Origin: a virus
Virus record (IMG/VR): IMGVR_UViG_3300035162_002291
Coordinates: 1-22,432 of that record
DNA length: 22,432 bases
Direction: 5' to 3' (one strand)
Below, piece after piece: positions 1,012 to 15,860 of the stretch (positions are counted from its first letter, which is position 1; the number at the start of each line of letters is the position of its first letter). The translations under genes were made by a program, and so were the position numbers. Below the pieces are notes generated by a model. That model made no database searches and was not told the DNA's origin. It was given only the letters and a program-made list of their open reading frames with translations.

Positions 1012-1461
1012 CTACTTCTTCTTATCGACTATCTTATATCTTTCTGCCGTAACCTCAGGCATCGTGAATAAAGCACGTGTATAAAAAGGTTGAACGTTAC
1101 TAGGTTTACGTGCAAACACTACCCACCTATAACCCATACCTTGAGTAAAAGTAGGAAATTTTTCTTTAATGAAATCTATCATACTAGTTCCAGTAGTGAA
1201 CACATCATCACATATTAATGGGAAGTCGGTATCATCACCAGAAGCATATTCGTTCAGTGCCTCTGCTAGTTTAACTCCACCACGTGGTATGCCGACTGCC
1301 TTACTAAATGGACGATCCTGATAATCCATAATCATCTTTGCTAGGCACTGCCACTCTTCGTCTGTAATAGCATCACACTCTAGTTTCCATTTGAGTGGTA
1401 GCCCTGCGTGACTAGTAAAATCTCCCATTTGAAATAAACTAGCATCTGGATCATACGGCAT
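1012..1461 (-). CDS. Phosphoribosyltransferase-like protein
   Basis: The 149-residue protein has the type I phosphoribosyltransferase signature: a hydrophobic strand followed by two acidic residues and a P-loop, LICDDVFTTGTSM, at residues 82-94, which binds the phosphate and ribose of PRPP. The upstream GIPRGG (57-62) corresponds to the pyrophosphate loop. Length is short for nucleotide-salvage enzymes (about 170-200), and the C-terminal hood that selects the base is not recognisable, so the substrate is unknown. Start and the stop of the upstream methyltransferase share one base (TAATG), indicating translational coupling. It could serve nucleotide salvage for phage DNA synthesis or act with the adjacent DNA-modification genes; the sequence does not decide. 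Confidence 0.8.
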   Translation of the reverse strand: MPYDPDASLFQMGDFTSHAGLPLKWKLECDAITDEEWQCLAKMIMDYQDRPFSKAVGIPRGGVKLAEALNEYASGDDTDFPLICDDVFTTGTSMIDFIKEKFPTFTQGMGYRWVVFARKPSNVQPFYTRALFTMPEVTAERYKIVDKKK

Positions 1462-2378: not shown

Positions 2379-3284
2379 CTATATTCTATCATCAATAGCA
2401 CGTCTGCCAATGTTCTCTCTGCCAATATCTATAAGCTTCATTCCATACTCTGGATCTTTAGCATACAAGACATTATCAACTTCTTTTAAATAGTTCTTCT
2501 TAAATGGTCTATAGTCCACATGGTGGTGCCATCTATTAAACTTCCAAACAACCTCAGTAACATCAGGGTGCATTTCTTTTAGCATCTCTGACTTAGGTAG
2601 TGTGCCTTCTTCAGCATAAAACTCTTTATCGTTACCACCAATAGTTCGTTGAGTTGTTCCCTTGTCTGCTAGGAATGCATTGAACTGTATTGTACACCAA
2701 CCATCTTTCAATGCTCTTAAAGATAAATCAGTATCTTCATTATATCGTCCACGCCATCTGTAAGGAATATCATTACGGATTAGGAGACATGAGTATATTC
2801 TTGTATTGAAGACAAGTGGTGGAACCTTATCGGTTGCCTTACAGAACTTACTATAGTTGGGGCCAGCGATTGCTACGTTGGAGTATCTGTCACAGAAGTC
2901 TTCCATGGCTCTGAACCATGCCATAGTTCTTACAGCGGCCTTTACATTATTGTTTAGTCTGTGAAAGTCGTAGATGTTATCATCCATAACCCAATGGCAC
3001 TTGGCACCATAGGTTGTAGTAGAATGCTCCCAAGCAAAGTTTCTTGCCGCCCCCGGACCCTTACTCTTACTCTGACCCAGATCATCACACGTATCGTAAT
3101 AGTCTAAGTAACTTCCATCAAGGGTTAAGAGTTTGTCTCTGTCATGGTATTCAGCATACTTATCTAGTTGATCTTCCTCAACCACAATATGATAGTCCAC
3201 CGAAAGTCTGTCAAGGAGTTCAGCGGTCTTACATTGATCCCAACGATTCTTTGAGACCACATATACTGGATACTTATTTTTCAT
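2379..3284 (-). CDS. GT-A type glycosyltransferase, resembling TET/JBP-associated glycosyltransferases of phages
   Basis: The 301-residue protein begins with a nucleotide-sugar transferase-like strand (YPVYVVSKNRW) and has an acidic metal-binding motif, WVMDDN at 98-103, followed later by YNEDTDLSLRAL, which fits the catalytic/acceptor Asp region of GT-A enzymes. The MDDN block and overall plan resemble the TET/JBP-associated glycosyltransferase (TAGT) family linked to phage DNA base hypermodification; that match is from memory. It overlaps the preceding methyltransferase-like gene by four bases (ATGA) and precedes a DNA methyltransferase, so modification of phage DNA is a reasonable inference. 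No TET/JBP dioxygenase is in this window, although a cupin-type oxygenase lies at 10286. An alternative is a glycosyltransferase for protein or surface glycans. Confidence 0.72.
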   Translation of the reverse strand: MKNKYPVYVVSKNRWDQCKTAELLDRLSVDYHIVVEEDQLDKYAEYHDRDKLLTLDGSYLDYYDTCDDLGQSKSKGPGAARNFAWEHSTTTYGAKCHWVMDDNIYDFHRLNNNVKAAVRTMAWFRAMEDFCDRYSNVAIAGPNYSKFCKATDKVPPLVFNTRIYSCLLIRNDIPYRWRGRYNEDTDLSLRALKDGWCTIQFNAFLADKGTTQRTIGGNDKEFYAEEGTLPKSEMLKEMHPDVTEVVWKFNRWHHHVDYRPFKKNYLKEVDNVLYAKDPEYGMKLIDIGRENIGRRAIDDRI

Positions 3285-3787: not shown

Positions 3788-4043
3788 TTTCTACCCAACG
3801 TAAGCCACCGTTCTTACCACGATCTAGTTGTGGGTGCCAGATACTTTTTGTTTTAACATTAACCTTCTGACCAATCATTTCAGAAAACTCTTTCAAGTCC
3901 TGTTCATTATCAAAACGAACAATGACCTTCGCATATGGCTCTACCTTTTCAGATACGAACTCAGGCATATTGACCCATTCCTTTTCTGGAAAGTTTCCTA
4001 CCTTATCATTGTCTGAGTCCAAGAACTCAAGTAAAGTGCTCAT
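3774..4043 (-). CDS. Small conserved phage protein of unknown function
   Basis: The 89-residue protein has a compact alpha/beta look: VIVRFDNEQDLKEFSEMIGQ resembles a small ferredoxin-like or RNA-binding-type half, followed by a lysine-rich TKSIWHPQ and a tryptophan near the end. The KxKSIWxP pattern recalls short proteins often found in phage DNA-modification neighbourhoods, but I cannot name the family. The ATG overlaps the stop of the primase-like gene by four bases, and the 3' end overlaps the NPPY methyltransferase gene. Good coding structure and position; no function assigned. Confidence 0.75.
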   Translation of the reverse strand: MSTLLEFLDSDNDKVGNFPEKEWVNMPEFVSEKVEPYAKVIVRFDNEQDLKEFSEMIGQKVNVKTKSIWHPQLDRGKNGGLRWVENDKS

Positions 4044-7504: not shown

Positions 7505-7533
7505 ATTGTAACCTATTCTATCAAGAAAGTCAA
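7505..7533 (-). promoter_or_regulatory. Sigma70-like promoter of gene 43
   Basis: TTGACT (7533-7528) and TACAAT (7510-7505) are separated by exactly 17 bases. The -35 box overlaps the stop codon of the upstream QueC-like gene, and the leader to the gp43 ATG is short. The -10 region continues as TACAATATAAGCTAAGTG, nearly identical to the promoter at 8226-8254. Confidence 0.75.
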
Positions 7534-8198
7534 CTACGAATTTTATAACCATCGTAACTTTTAAAAGCCCAGTAACGCTCTTCGCACCACCAGCATTTTT
7601 TGCATGGCAGTTTTTGATCACCAGTACAACTAGATGTTAAAGCGGATAGATCACTTAATCCTAGTGTCTTATATTGGTGAGCTATAAATTTCTTATCAAC
7701 AGTAGCAAAAGGAAACCTTAAAGGATATTCTTTGGACATTGCAATGACTTCTTCATTTGTAAGGTCATATTTATCTTCATTCCAATTTGGGCGTTTTCTA
7801 TCAGGCATACCTAATGTCATCGCATCCAGCATATCTTCTATGTTGTATTTGTTCTTTAAATATATGTAGTTGGGGAAAAACCACTCATATTTTCCTACGG
7901 GTTTGTTTTTATAAAATGCAAAAGTATGCAGAGGTGGAACCTCTATATTAAAAAGAGATACTATATATTCGTATACAGCATCAGCCGCTTCATAACTTCT
8001 AGCTACTGTTCTGTATGTATCATATCCATGCATTGTATATACTAGAGTATCTTGATTTCGGTCAGATAAAGTTTTTAATAAGCAATAAAATGCTAATGCA
8101 GAATCAGCCCCCCCAGAGAGAGATAATCCCACAGACTTAATATCCGTAGGAAATGTTTCAAAATAGTCTAGGGAAGTTGTGCCATCAGTTAATATCAT
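7530..8198 (-). CDS. PP-loop ATPase, QueC-like (7-cyano-7-deazaguanine synthase family)
   Basis: The 222-residue protein has the PP-loop SLSGGADSA at residues 26-34, which binds ATP for adenylation. Its C-terminus has a zinc-type cysteine cluster, Cys-x7-Cys-x2-Cys-x2-Cys within SCTGDQKLPCKKCWWCEER. Bacterial QueC has the same arrangement (Cys-x8-Cys-x2-Cys-x2-Cys), and length (about 220-230) also fits. QueC turns 7-carboxy-7-deazaguanine into preQ0, used for tRNA queuosine and, in some phages, for 7-deazaguanine in DNA. However, the middle of the protein (WFFPNYIYLKNKYNIEDML) is not typical, and no queD, queE, folE or DNA transglycosylase gene is in the window, so another PP-loop reaction is possible. 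It has its own promoter and sits between the DUF1127 pair and gp43. Confidence 0.75.
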   Translation of the reverse strand: MILTDGTTSLDYFETFPTDIKSVGLSLSGGADSALAFYCLLKTLSDRNQDTLVYTMHGYDTYRTVARSYEAADAVYEYIVSLFNIEVPPLHTFAFYKNKPVGKYEWFFPNYIYLKNKYNIEDMLDAMTLGMPDRKRPNWNEDKYDLTNEEVIAMSKEYPLRFPFATVDKKFIAHQYKTLGLSDLSALTSSCTGDQKLPCKKCWWCEERYWAFKSYDGYKIRS

Positions 8199-9304: not shown

Positions 9305-9389
9305 TGGCTCTGGGGGAAGGAGTCGAACCTTCAAAGCTTTCGCCACACGATAAACAGTCGTGCGTGTTTACCAGTTTCACCACCCCAGA
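9305..9389 (-). tRNA. tRNA with GUU anticodon (Asn codons), class II long variable arm, encoded CCA
   Basis: All arms fold. The acceptor stem TCTGGGG pairs perfectly with CCCCAGA, followed by G73 and CCA. The D arm is GTG/CAC around AAACTGGTAAA. The anticodon stem CACGA/TCGTG carries the loop CTGTTTA, so the anticodon is GTT. The T arm GAAGG/CCTTC encloses TTCGACT. The variable region is 13 bases, TGGCGAAAGCTTT, with a short GGC/GCT stem capped by a GAAA loop: a class II arm otherwise found in Leu, Ser and bacterial Tyr tRNAs. The D arm is Leu-like, while G73 and U35 fit Asn. Position 37 is T rather than the purine expected for ANN codons. It lies six bases after the stop of the synthetase-like gene and is surely cotranscribed. 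True charging identity is open: Asn, Ser or Leu. Confidence 0.88.
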
Positions 9390-9395
9390 TTATTA

Positions 9396-10226
9396 CTATA
9401 TTGTTTCGATAGCTTGAAGTGCTGGTATCATTCTAGTAATACCGATACCGCCACCAACTCTAGGAAAGAAGTCAAACTTAAAGAACTCTTCTAGTTCTGC
9501 CTCTACTCTCTCTTTACCAAATAGTTCGAACAACAACTTTGAGTACGCACCTTCGGTTATGCTGTAGAATGTATCTCGCATCATATCTACGTCACAACTA
9601 CGTTCAGCACTACCGATTGTTTCCATGCCACCCAAGATAACATCAATCTTCTTACTGGTCTCTCCACCTTCATTCCTACTCATATTCCAGAATGGGCTAG
9701 TCATCTCTGGGAAGTCTGTGATTAGTGTGGGTCCAAAGAAATTTTGCATTGCTAGTTCATGTTGTGCTGTAAGTTCTGAATTGATATGAACACCATAATG
9801 CTGTTGCCATTCTCTGTATGTTTTTTCTGTAGGCTCTTTGAAACCTAAGTATTCACATAACTCATATTCCATTGCCTTAAGATCATTTATGTCACCGGGC
9901 ATTTCAAACTCAAACATTGGGAAGATTATGTCATGGCGTCCGGGGATTGCGTTTGGCTCTTGTCTATATGACGTGGAGACACAAAAAAAGCCCTGCGAAG
10001 AGGGCTTGGTGAGTAACTCATGTTCTAGCCACATCTGGCCTGTTTGGGGAAGGGGCCACGTTTCCCCTGCATAATTATACGTTGCCACATTAAATGGGTC
10101 TTCACAAGCGGCTAGGATACTCAATCTATTCTGCGTGTGTACTTCTAAAAATCCTTTAGACAAAAAAAATGACCTTAAAAGGCCAACTGTGTCTGTAAAT
10201 TTTTGGGGGTCTATTAGTTGCGTCAT
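9396..10226 (-). CDS. Class II aminoacyl-tRNA synthetase-like protein (Asp/Asn type core) lacking the anticodon-binding domain
   Basis: The 276-residue protein is only the catalytic core of a class IIb synthetase. Motif 1 is seen as FFLSKGFLEVHTQ (20-32; the usual Pro is Gln32). Then come LPQTGQMWLEHELL, motif 2 as SYRQEPNAIPGRH with FEFE (Arg88, Glu90, Arg97, His98, Glu106/108), and motif 3 GGGIGITR (258-265, Arg265). The N-terminal OB-fold that reads the Asp/Asn anticodon is absent. Family B proteins of this shape include archaeal asparagine synthetase (AS-AR) and EpmA/GenX, which do not need an anticodon domain. It could therefore make asparagine, charge the neighbouring tRNA, or attach an amino acid elsewhere. 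A GAAGGAAAAATA site precedes ATG, a TATAAATA late box lies upstream, and the tRNA follows after six bases. Confidence 0.88.
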   Translation of the reverse strand: MTQLIDPQKFTDTVGLLRSFFLSKGFLEVHTQNRLSILAACEDPFNVATYNYAGETWPLPQTGQMWLEHELLTKPSSQGFFCVSTSYRQEPNAIPGRHDIIFPMFEFEMPGDINDLKAMEYELCEYLGFKEPTEKTYREWQQHYGVHINSELTAQHELAMQNFFGPTLITDFPEMTSPFWNMSRNEGGETSKKIDVILGGMETIGSAERSCDVDMMRDTFYSITEGAYSKLLFELFGKERVEAELEEFFKFDFFPRVGGGIGITRMIPALQAIETI

Positions 10227-13205: not shown

Positions 13206-14187
13206 TGATTTGATTCCTTTTTACCTTACGTAGATTATCATCAATAGCAATGCTATCAACTTTCTTTGGAACAACCTCGTAACCACAAACGTGATCTTTG
13301 ATAAAGTTTTTAATATTCATATCACCTGTGAAATAAACTATACATTGCTTACTCACTTTTCTACACAGTGCTAAACTCGCACCATTTTCTATAGCAACCT
13401 TTTCTATCTGTTCTGGATATACTCTATCACCACAGTTCTCCATCTTAAATGCGTTGTGTTGCCGCCCTGCAAAGAAGAACTCGCCTTTACTATTATATTC
13501 TATGAGGTCTCCACTATTCCACCATTCATCTTGATCTTTATACTTACAAGCAAACTCTATAGAACCATCTTCATGATTAATATTCTTATAGTCTATCATA
13601 GGATTTATATCATTGAAGTGATAAATGTCTTGCTGTTCAGTGGACATGATTAAAGGTGGAACCTCTGTGCTTCCATAAGCCGTGTTAACTTGTTGCGCTC
13701 CTTTAGACCTTAGATCTTCCATCATACCATTGGGAGTAACATCACTTCCTACTTGAAGTTGTTGCACCCCACTTAAGTCTAAACTCTTCCACGCCTTATG
13801 TCTGTGCCAAGTCTTCCACACATTAGGTAACATAAGAGAGTGAGTTGGATTTATTTCTCGTATTCTATTAGGATAATCTGATACTGTAGTCTCTATAAAA
13901 ACATCACAGTTTGCTACCGCACAAGGATATAAACTCATAGAGGAGAAGCCAATACCTCTTGGATTATACAGAGCCATCATAGTGCTATTTGAACTTAAAC
14001 CAAATGCTTCAGCATTGTACTCTGCAATCTTATGCATAAGTTTACTATCATGCTTAAAAGTCTTAGGCTTACCAGTTGTTCCACTAGTGCTTACAGTTAT
14101 ATTCCAATTTTCTAAATAATCTATGACTGAAGATCTAACATGATCATTATCGCTTTTAAGATATTCTACGCCATCAATATGAATCAT
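13195..14187 (-). CDS. Compact ANL-superfamily adenylate-forming ligase
   Basis: The 330-residue protein has the AMP-binding core motifs in order: the phosphate loop STSGTTGKPK (33-42), YGSTE (171-175), SGDL (225-228), the hinge GRQHNAFK (241-248; usual GRxDxxxK with His for Asp), and a C-terminal KVKRN, in place of the GKxxR lysine motif. It would activate a carboxylic acid as acyl-AMP, then pass it to CoA, a carrier protein or an amine. It is much shorter than typical ANL enzymes (500 or more), lacking most of the N-terminal domain, as in small OSB-CoA-ligase-like or phage/lantibiotic forms. ATGA overlap with the halogenase and 11-base overlap with the next gene make it part of a fixed operon. 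The acid substrate is not predictable. Confidence 0.88.
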   Translation of the reverse strand: MIHIDGVEYLKSDNDHVRSSVIDYLENWNITVSTSGTTGKPKTFKHDSKLMHKIAEYNAEAFGLSSNSTMMALYNPRGIGFSSMSLYPCAVANCDVFIETTVSDYPNRIREINPTHSLMLPNVWKTWHRHKAWKSLDLSGVQQLQVGSDVTPNGMMEDLRSKGAQQVNTAYGSTEVPPLIMSTEQQDIYHFNDINPMIDYKNINHEDGSIEFACKYKDQDEWWNSGDLIEYNSKGEFFFAGRQHNAFKMENCGDRVYPEQIEKVAIENGASLALCRKVSKQCIVYFTGDMNIKNFIKDHVCGYEVVPKKVDSIAIDDNLRKVKRNQIIAT

Positions 14188-15860
14188 TTTTCTGCTATCG
14201 CCTCTTCTAATACTTCATTATGAGTTCTACCACCATACAGATGTTTACTACTCCAATCATACACATGAGGTGCTATTTTGGATGTATATAACCCCTTATC
14301 CTTTATATAGTTATAATCCATTTCAGCCAAAGGTACGAGAGTGGGATCAATGTTTAATTTACACAAGTCCGTATCCCATTGATCCATATACATCTGTTGA
14401 TCAGCCCAGTGATAATCTAAAAAGAAATTAGATCCTAGATAGCCTCTTGCACTTCTATACTCTTTCCAGTTCTTCTCTCTATGATTATTGTCAATACCAT
14501 ACTGGCCCCACTTACGCCAGAAGTCAGTATCTCTTCTTTTACTTAATGTGTAATGATAGCATATAAAATCGTCTATTTGATTTTGAAGTTTATGAAGTTC
14601 TCTTGATACAGCTTTCTTAGTATTTTCTTTTACTACTTTACCTTTATATTTGTTTAGCACTTGATTGAGCATTTGCATACCAGCTTGAGCAACGTATATA
14701 ACATTGGCTTCCATTGGATCTACAAATCCACCAGACATTCCTATAGCCATTACATTCTTTTCCCATGACTTCTCATAGTAGCCTTGGTCCCAAGATAAGA
14801 ATCTGGGTTCAGCCATGAACTCATACCCATCCCAATACTTTATAAAATCTTCTCTGGCTTGATCTTTATCATAACTATTAGCGTCAAATATATAACCTGT
14901 TCCCATTCTACTGAACAATGTTATAATAAATTGCCAACCAGCTTTACGGGCATAGCTTTGAGTGTATGGTCTCATTTCTTTATAAGGATCTTTATACTTA
15001 ACAGGAGCAACCCAAGCACTCTGAGTGGGCTGTTGTTTAATACTTTTCCATTTAACACCCATGGTTTTCATTAAAACTTTACTAAAACCAGTAGCATCCA
15101 AGTATAAATCAGCGGATACTTTTTCCCCCGATTCTAAACTTAGTTCTGTTATATAACCATCATCGTCTTTATTTATCCCTTTAACATGATCTTGTTTCCA
15201 TATTACTCCTAATGGTAAAGCAGATAGTTCTCTTATCATTTTAGGGAATCGGTTGGCATCAGTGTGCCACGTATAAGCTCCATAATCTCCTACCACAGGA
15301 TATCCATCATCATAACGGGCCGCCCTATTATTCATTGAAGGATAGTATTGAGCCATCGTATACTCACCCTGTTGATGCCAATCATACTTGCCAGTATTAA
15401 CTAAATGATACCAGTAGTCTCTGCTTTTATTATCAATACCAAACTTACCATTATTATCATAAAAGTAATCTTTTTTATTTCTATTATGATATAAAGTGTT
15501 TCTAAAAGTATCAGTTTTATTCGTAAAACTAAAAGTATAATAGTGCTGATGTTCTTTTTTAGCATTCCAATGATCGTGAACGGTTTCCATGGGGGTTTCT
15601 GTGTTCCATCCTACAAAATGATTTCCCATCTTGTGAATACCATGTACTCCCGCTAACCATTTATTTTCATCTATATCTAACCACTTAAGCATATCCCCTA
15701 GTTGTGGGACCATACTTTCTCCTACACCTAAAATAGGAACATTAGGAGATTCGATTAAAGTTATATCTAAATGTTTATTAAATTTTTTTAAGTATGCGGC
15801 AGTAAACCAACCAGCCACACCACCACCTAAAACTATAATACTATTAATTGGTTTTTTCAC
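14184..15860 (-). CDS. Flavin-dependent halogenase-like protein (tryptophan halogenase family)
   Basis: The 558-residue protein opens with the FAD-binding GGGVAGW (12-18) and has the family's GVGES block (45-49), then a Lys77 in GIHKMGNHFVGW that aligns with the catalytic lysine of PrnA. The distal GGFVDPMEA block (377-385) supplies the glutamate (Glu384) seen in PrnA. The diagnostic WxWxIP motif is replaced by WQFIIT (309-314), so the active site is altered. A viral halogenase of this superfamily, VirX1, has been described from a T4-like cyanophage; this protein may be a relative (from memory, not tested). It would oxidise halide with FADH2 and O2 on an aromatic or other substrate. It overlaps gp44 and the ligase by four bases each. 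A flavin reductase is not present in the window. Confidence 0.88.
   Translation of the reverse strand: MKKPINSIIVLGGGVAGWFTAAYLKKFNKHLDITLIESPNVPILGVGESMVPQLGDMLKWLDIDENKWLAGVHGIHKMGNHFVGWNTETPMETVHDHWNAKKEHQHYYTFSFTNKTDTFRNTLYHNRNKKDYFYDNNGKFGIDNKSRDYWYHLVNTGKYDWHQQGEYTMAQYYPSMNNRAARYDDGYPVVGDYGAYTWHTDANRFPKMIRELSALPLGVIWKQDHVKGINKDDDGYITELSLESGEKVSADLYLDATGFSKVLMKTMGVKWKSIKQQPTQSAWVAPVKYKDPYKEMRPYTQSYARKAGWQFIITLFSRMGTGYIFDANSYDKDQAREDFIKYWDGYEFMAEPRFLSWDQGYYEKSWEKNVMAIGMSGGFVDPMEANVIYVAQAGMQMLNQVLNKYKGKVVKENTKKAVSRELHKLQNQIDDFICYHYTLSKRRDTDFWRKWGQYGIDNNHREKNWKEYRSARGYLGSNFFLDYHWADQQMYMDQWDTDLCKLNIDPTLVPLAEMDYNYIKDKGLYTSKIAPHVYDWSSKHLYGGRTHNEVLEEAIAEK

Follow-up and report, generated by a model that had tools for sequence, protein, structure and literature searches.

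Why would a virus carry a tRNA with the identity elements of asparagine on a body of another kind, and what is it for? The gene that raises this question lies at positions 9305–9389, minus strand, of the window, by which we mean the whole stretch of viral DNA analyzed (22,432 nucleotides, IMG/VR record IMGVR_UViG_3300035162_002291). It is the single tRNA that ARAGORN finds in the whole window, called as tRNA-Asn (gtt), and Rfam RF00005 matches it with 51.8 bits (E=1e-8) and an 11-nt insertion in the variable region. On the minus strand it reads TCTGGGG-TG-GTG-AAACTGGTAAA-CAC-G-CACGA-CTGTTTA-TCGTG-TGGCGAAAGCTTT-GAAGG-TTCGACT-CCTTC-CCCCAGA-G-CCA, and the 3' CCA is thus encoded. The anticodon G34 U35 U36 is at 9353–9355, the discriminator is G73 and the first pair is T1-A72. 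The D stem has 3 bp with a Leu-like loop, position 37 (9352) is T, and the 13-nt variable region (9333–9345) forms a 3-bp stem in which GGC pairs with GCT around a GAAA cap, so that the loop is not of the normal short kind.

The original prediction, made from the letters of this DNA, had described the anticodon, G73, T1-A72, the Leu-like D arm, T37 and the GAAA-capped variable stem, which are indeed all present, and had proposed that the tRNA might cause serine misreading of Asn codons, similar in idea to nematode nev-tRNAs. Its picture of a class II, Leu-type body with the identity of Asn stands, as does the significance that it attached to T37, whereas misreading with serine (or leucine) is not supported; the tRNA is real and is strange for a better reason than serine misreading, which is unlikely. 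What the prediction missed is the AsnRS-like gene 7 bp upstream of the tRNA, here called X, and a link to pyrimidine synthesis.

A covariance comparison of homologues, which had been suggested as a check together with ARAGORN, showed that the cloverleaf is kept by 146 distinct viral relatives. In a 39-sequence alignment, 99.8% of cells pair and double changes are seen at 17 of 26 pairs. The possibility that the tRNA is a chance match or an artefact was ruled out by this covariation and by the hundreds of relatives. When a covariance model of the X-linked tRNAs was run on 12 cellular genomes with X, 19 of the 20 top matches checked were tRNA-Leu and one was tRNA-Tyr, and A15 and U48 are present in 146/146 of the X-linked tRNAs; a Leu body with Asn labels is therefore a fair description of the family.

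Within the family, some positions are kept without exception and others are relaxed. GUU, U1-A72 and G73 are each found in 146/146 tRNAs. At position 33, 131 of the tRNAs have U, 13 have C and 2 have G; at position 37, U (118) is followed by A (19), G (5) and C (4). As controls, we took 84 distinct other tRNAs from the same viral loci: a purine at 37 was found in all 84 (that is, a pyrimidine in 0/84) as against 24/146 X-linked tRNAs (a pyrimidine in 122/146), and U33 in all 84 as against 131/146, although ARAGORN may itself favour U33. Fisher tests gave P=3e-41 (position 37) and P=0.001 (position 33); as the sequences are related, these values are guides only. The variable region also drifts, from 5 to 39 nt, with 12–39 nt in 141 of the tRNAs and 5–7 nt in the remaining 5.

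This pattern matches no ordinary isotype entirely. The anticodon, G73 and U1-A72 are those of a decoding tRNA-Asn, but the purine at 37 is missing in most of the relatives and in the window tRNA, U33 is missing in some relatives, and the variable region of the window tRNA, with 13 nt, is not a short class I loop. For a tRNA-Ser, G73 is right, but a conserved long arm is lacking in the family; for a tRNA-Leu, the body is right, but the discriminator A73 is replaced by G73 throughout. It has been reported that Asn identity consists of the anticodon and G73, which are enough when transplanted into another tRNA, and that G73 is an antideterminant against LeuRS (PMC9976931). U1-A72 is the determinant of the amidotransferase for the amidation of Asp-tRNAAsn, and t6A37 acts against AspRS in yeast (PMC9976931, PMC4206432). 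Taken with the counts in the 146 tRNAs, this literature means that the tRNA keeps the positions needed by charging enzymes and relaxes those needed by the ribosome.

Several variants were observed beside X. In one contig only (L319), a tRNA about 5–110 bp after X has the Asp anticodon GUC together with U1-A72 and G73; this single case fits charging by AspRS followed by amidation, as far as its sequence goes. The X-linked tRNAs of L273, L277, L286, L303 and L253 have a class I variable loop (5–7 nt) and G37, and perhaps represent an ancestral or decoding-competent form. In L168, TCCGGGGTCCCCCGGAGCCA alone remains directly after X, corresponding to an acceptor stem, G73 and CCA with no tRNA body; a deletion, an assembly artefact and a minihelix are candidate explanations. 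The isotypes Glu, Asp, Gly, Ile and Stop given by ARAGORN for some relatives were found to be misfolds when checked against the sequence, as the loop reads GTT each time. Because of the long variable arm, ARAGORN misnames or misses many of the relatives (L009–L084), and annotations of marine phages will therefore undercount the X-linked tRNAs.

The partner gene X (9396–10226, minus strand) encodes 276 amino acids and matches PF00152 (E=1e-16) and PHROG 29758. Its best NCBIfam matches are asparagine--tRNA ligases, at 33.1 bits against the asnS cut-off of 342.6 bits (TIGR00457); on this difference, together with the missing N-terminal anticodon-binding domain, X was rejected as a simple member of the AsnRS family. 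An AlphaFold2 model built with 54 relatives (mean pLDDT 94) predicts a stand-alone class IIb catalytic core of the AsnRS type. The structures closest to the model are AsnRS enzymes, with human AsnRS:Asn-AMP in first place (Z 27.5 over 247 residues), and structures of archaeal asparagine synthetase A also align, with Z about 23.5. The arginines R88 of motif 2 and R265 of motif 3 are invariant in the 54 sequences, as expected for a class IIb enzyme. Asparagine is the likelier substrate, since the substrate motif TGQMWLE of X resembles SGQLxxE of AsnRS and not SPQLYKQ of the aligned AspRS chains. As X has no domain that would read GUU, the constraint on the anticodon points to a host AsnRS or AspRS, or to decoding.

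The pairing of X with the tRNA is tight. We collected 322 loci with 212 distinct X proteins from IMG/VR and phage records, and an automatic parser placed a GTT tRNA directly downstream of X in 185 of the 212, at a distance that is for the most part 4–11 bp; nearly all spacings fall within 3 to 18 bp, and the largest is 226 bp. Among the others, the parser had missed the tRNA in several (L010, L017, L041, L257, L271, L276 and others) or the contig end cut the locus; elsewhere a nearby tRNA is truly absent, for example in the huge phages behind L004, L085, L401 and L402. In the 735-kb phage of L085, a long inverted-repeat RNA (TTGGCGA...TCGCCAA) was seen upstream of X, at 3835–3925 of the locus. 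The reverse search with a DNA pattern of the tRNA core found X directly upstream in 78 of 79 contigs, the last being truncated, and no contig without X. The Prochlorococcus phages P-SSM7 and P-SSM5 have the tRNA, annotated as tRNA-Asn, about 9 bp after a gene called 'tRNA ligase', and the same tRNA sequence also follows a 'tRNA ligase' gene in P-SSM2; in P-SSM2 and P-SSM5 (252 kb each), it is the sole tRNA. Sullivan et al. (2010) listed 'tRNA ligase' in P-SSM2 and P-SSM7 and one tRNA in P-SSM2, but did not link the two (PMC3037559).

X is not confined to viruses. Cellular relatives are about 50–60% identical, and the tRNA-bearing X of phages nests inside the cellular radiation and keeps the same conserved residues as cellular X, which stands without such a tRNA. 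Relatives of X at L163–L242, which adjoin pyr or argininosuccinate-lyase-like genes, come from Patescibacteria, DPANN, symbionts and Pasteurella atlantica and make up an enzyme family of wide distribution. No dedicated tRNA adjoins X at the cellular loci examined. We also considered whether cellular X has a class II GTT tRNA elsewhere in the genome, but none was present among the 20 covariance-model matches checked in the 12 genomes, which were ordinary tRNA-Leu or tRNA-Tyr. The chemistry of X may therefore not need a tRNA.

In cells, X adjoins pyrD, pyrE or pyrF in Pasteurella atlantica, Midichloriaceae, Myxococcota, Dependentiae, Chitinophagaceae and Gammaproteobacteria, and a pyr match was found in the flank of 21 of 80 genome-derived X loci, a few of which are phage contigs in bins. 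The earlier enzymes of the pathway are scarce in the same genomes. A pyrB over the cut-off was found in 6/50 X genomes against 14/14 controls, and 19 of the 23 X genomes with pyrE (of the 50) have no pyrB over the cut-off; carB over the cut-off was found in 0/12 X genomes against 14/14 controls, and pyrC_multi, the one pyrC family searched, in 1/12 against 11/14. These comparisons must be read with the knowledge that MAGs are incomplete and that loss of pyrB and carB is common in reduced genomes for unrelated reasons. P. atlantica has AsnRS and AsnB and lacks GatB, and the X genomes as a whole are mixed for asnS, asnB and GatB, so no single source of asparagine is implied for cellular X.

The same linkage is seen in a subset of the phages. 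The order pyrD-X-tRNA-pyrE was found in L311 (the same contig as L485), L148 and L486; in L311 and L148, the pyrD (DHO_dh, E=1e-17), X, the tRNA and a phosphoribosyltransferase gene are all on one strand. In L269, a phosphoribosyltransferase gene precedes X and the tRNA, with pyrF upstream. A search with phage pyrF showed X and the tRNA adjoining in 7 of 8 viral pyrF loci, and a search with phage pyrD showed pyrD-X-tRNA-pyrE in 2 of 9 viral pyrD loci, the only two with X in the examined flank. A pyr gene could be recognised in the 3–4 kb flanks of only 16 of the 212 distinct viral X, and nothing in P-SSM2 and P-SSM7 matched the queries used for pyrD and pyrE. The window itself has a short pyrE-like phosphoribosyltransferase gene (1012–1461, minus strand), which is related to the gene adjoining X/pyrF in Midichloriaceae and Pasteurella (tblastn to the Midichloriaceae gene, 41% identity, E=2e-20; Pfam Pribosyltran sub-threshold, E=0.02). 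In the open-access literature searched we found no description of the module of X and an Asn-identity tRNA, nor of an asparagine route to dihydroorotate; over part of its range, this module, undescribed there, is connected with UMP synthesis.

Since the tRNA pairs with the AsnRS-like X and nucleotide genes lie nearby in some viruses, it probably feeds asparagine into nucleotide synthesis and does not misread protein codons. The reading that we favour, for which we see about an even chance, is that X and the tRNA form one two-gene module in which a dedicated, mainly non-decoding Asn-tRNA serves X in an alternative route to dihydroorotate. The tRNA would be built for charging with asparagine, because GUU and G73 suit AsnRS or a non-discriminating AspRS and U1-A72 suits GatCAB, and would not be optimised for ribosomal decoding, given U37, the relaxed U33 and the drifting length of the variable arm; its role is most likely that of an Asn-tRNA donor or cofactor for X. 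X would open an alternative path to UMP by producing the dihydroorotate that normally comes from CarAB, PyrB and PyrC, and PyrD, PyrE and PyrF of the phage or the host would complete it.

Dihydroorotate is, atom for atom, asparagine plus one carbonyl that bridges the amino and amide nitrogens, and an enzyme that captures CO2 after activating Asn, or after binding Asn-tRNA, could for this reason replace CarAB, PyrB and PyrC. It is chemically plausible that CO2 is taken up by the amino group of activated asparagine (Asn-tRNA or Asn-AMP) and that the side-chain amide then closes the six-membered ring. Because many bacteria make asparagine only on tRNA, a dedicated phage Asn-tRNA would supply X without draining the pool for translation. 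A more specific version, to which we give a tentative place somewhat below an even chance, is that the AsnRS-derived enzyme uses the phage Asn-tRNA as its substrate, once host AspRS/GatCAB or AsnRS has charged it, and makes dihydroorotate from it, bypassing carbamoyl phosphate, PyrB and PyrC, and that cells with reduced genomes use free asparagine or ordinary tRNA-Asn instead. What the sequences show is the pairing, the pattern of identity elements, the relaxation at decoding positions, a predicted fold like that of AsnRS, the linkage to pyrD, pyrE and pyrF, and how seldom pyrB (and, in the 12 genomes, carB) is present. The use of Asn or Asn-tRNA by X, dihydroorotate as its product, the small part of the tRNA in translation and the reason for a phage tRNA are inferred from structure and gene content.

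Among the other explanations, the one that survives best, though we regard it as unlikely, is an orthogonal translation pair, in which X, as a minimal AsnRS, would load Asn onto the class II tRNA that belongs to it and so allow AAC and AAU in phage mRNAs to be decoded once host tRNA-Asn has become scarce or has been destroyed. The predicted AsnRS-like fold with class IIb motifs, the tight pairing with a GUU tRNA and the retention of GUU and, mostly, of U33 opposite an enzyme lacking an anticodon-binding domain are all in line with it. Some decoding by the tRNA is indeed possible in view of U33 in 131/146 and the one clade with class I arms and G37. However, a decoding tRNA would not be expected to have a pyrimidine at 37 in most of the family and a non-U33 in 15/146, when neither occurs in any of the 84 control tRNAs; the conserved residues of X are the same as in cellular X, which adjoins pyr genes with no such tRNA, and the linkage to pyrD, pyrE and pyrF in phages would be left unexplained.

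It is also conceivable, with a distinctly smaller chance, that X is a stand-alone pyrimidine or asparagine enzyme resembling asparagine synthetase, and that the tRNA beside it is a separate translational or regulatory element such as a processing signal or a sensor. The X of cells and of some huge phages (L004, L085, L401 and L402), with no adjoining tRNA, and the alignment with archaeal asparagine synthetase A agree with this; but the pairing has been kept over more than 100 diverged sequences despite the changing spacing, and a mere processing signal would have no need of invariant Asn identity elements. Slightly less probable still is defence evasion, in which changes in its anticodon loop would protect the phage tRNA-Asn from anticodon nucleases of the host and thereby sustain translation. 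Anticodon-loop changes in mycobacteriophage tRNAs have been linked to nuclease resistance and proposed to keep translation going, and U37 and C33 are changes of this kind (PMC10264068), but evasion explains neither the obligate pairing with X and the pyr linkage nor the normal loops of the other tRNAs at the same loci. The original proposal, in which the tRNA would be charged by SerRS or LeuRS and would misread the Asn codons of late phage proteins, is very improbable and was rejected. Arm lengths in the family vary from 5 nt (class I-like) to 39 nt while the Asn elements are invariant, so that the long-arm signal of the SerRS type is not the conserved feature; SerRS needs neither GUU nor U1-A72; and Asn makes up 5.8% of codons in 11 window genes, so that misreading would be proteome-wide. 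In its favour, a Leu body whose A73 is replaced by G73 can, in some contexts, switch to serine (PMC9976931).

Other genes of the window, all on the minus strand, were also noted. A TET-associated glycosyltransferase gene (2379–3284) and a DNA methylase gene (1461–2228) suggest that the phage DNA is modified, a tryptophan halogenase gene lies at 14184–15860, and the C-terminal part of the gene at 7530–8198 resembles QueC (E=4e-6) from the synthesis of queuosine, of which tRNAs with GUN anticodons are targets.

If the favoured reading of X and its tRNA is true, asparagine, possibly as aminoacyl-tRNA, would replace carbamoyl phosphate and aspartate in a new entry to pyrimidine synthesis, which is among the most conserved pathways. 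This would explain how UMP is made in many Patescibacteria and intracellular symbionts that have pyrD, pyrE and pyrF but no carAB, pyrB or pyrC, and it would give a phage tRNA a concrete role outside translation. For the study of tRNA identity, too, the module offers a natural test case, in which Asn labels sit on a body of another kind and the partner enzyme has no anticodon domain, and it may be a source of orthogonal pairs.

The components of the proposed module can be compared with several known systems. AsnRS (TIGR00457) shares with X the class IIb catalytic fold, motifs 2 and 3 and the SGQLxxE-type substrate motif, but X lacks the anticodon-binding domain, falls below the cut-off and is linked to pyrimidine genes. 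Archaeal asparagine synthetase A (AsnS-like, 3p8t) and EpmA/GenX are, like X, stand-alone cores of class II aminoacyl-tRNA synthetases with no anticodon domain and a non-translational use; their sequence match to X is weak, and, unlike for phage X, we know of no dedicated tRNA for either. The nematode nev-tRNAs combine a class II body with a mismatched anticodon, as the X-linked tRNA does, but they have Leu-type identity, so that the likeness first drawn to them fails on the invariant Asn identity elements of the 146 relatives. In tetrapyrrole synthesis, glutamyl-tRNA reductase uses Glu-tRNA, and an aminoacyl-tRNA is thus the start of primary metabolism as in the proposed module, although the tRNA-Glu is an ordinary one and the enzyme belongs to a different family from X. 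The non-proteinogenic tRNA-Gly of Staphylococcus are dedicated isoacceptors for cell-wall synthesis, normally charged and diverted from translation, which is the part proposed here for the X-linked tRNA; they are host genes that bring glycine to peptidoglycan, whereas the X-linked tRNA is encoded by phages, has Asn identity and is associated with pyrimidine genes.
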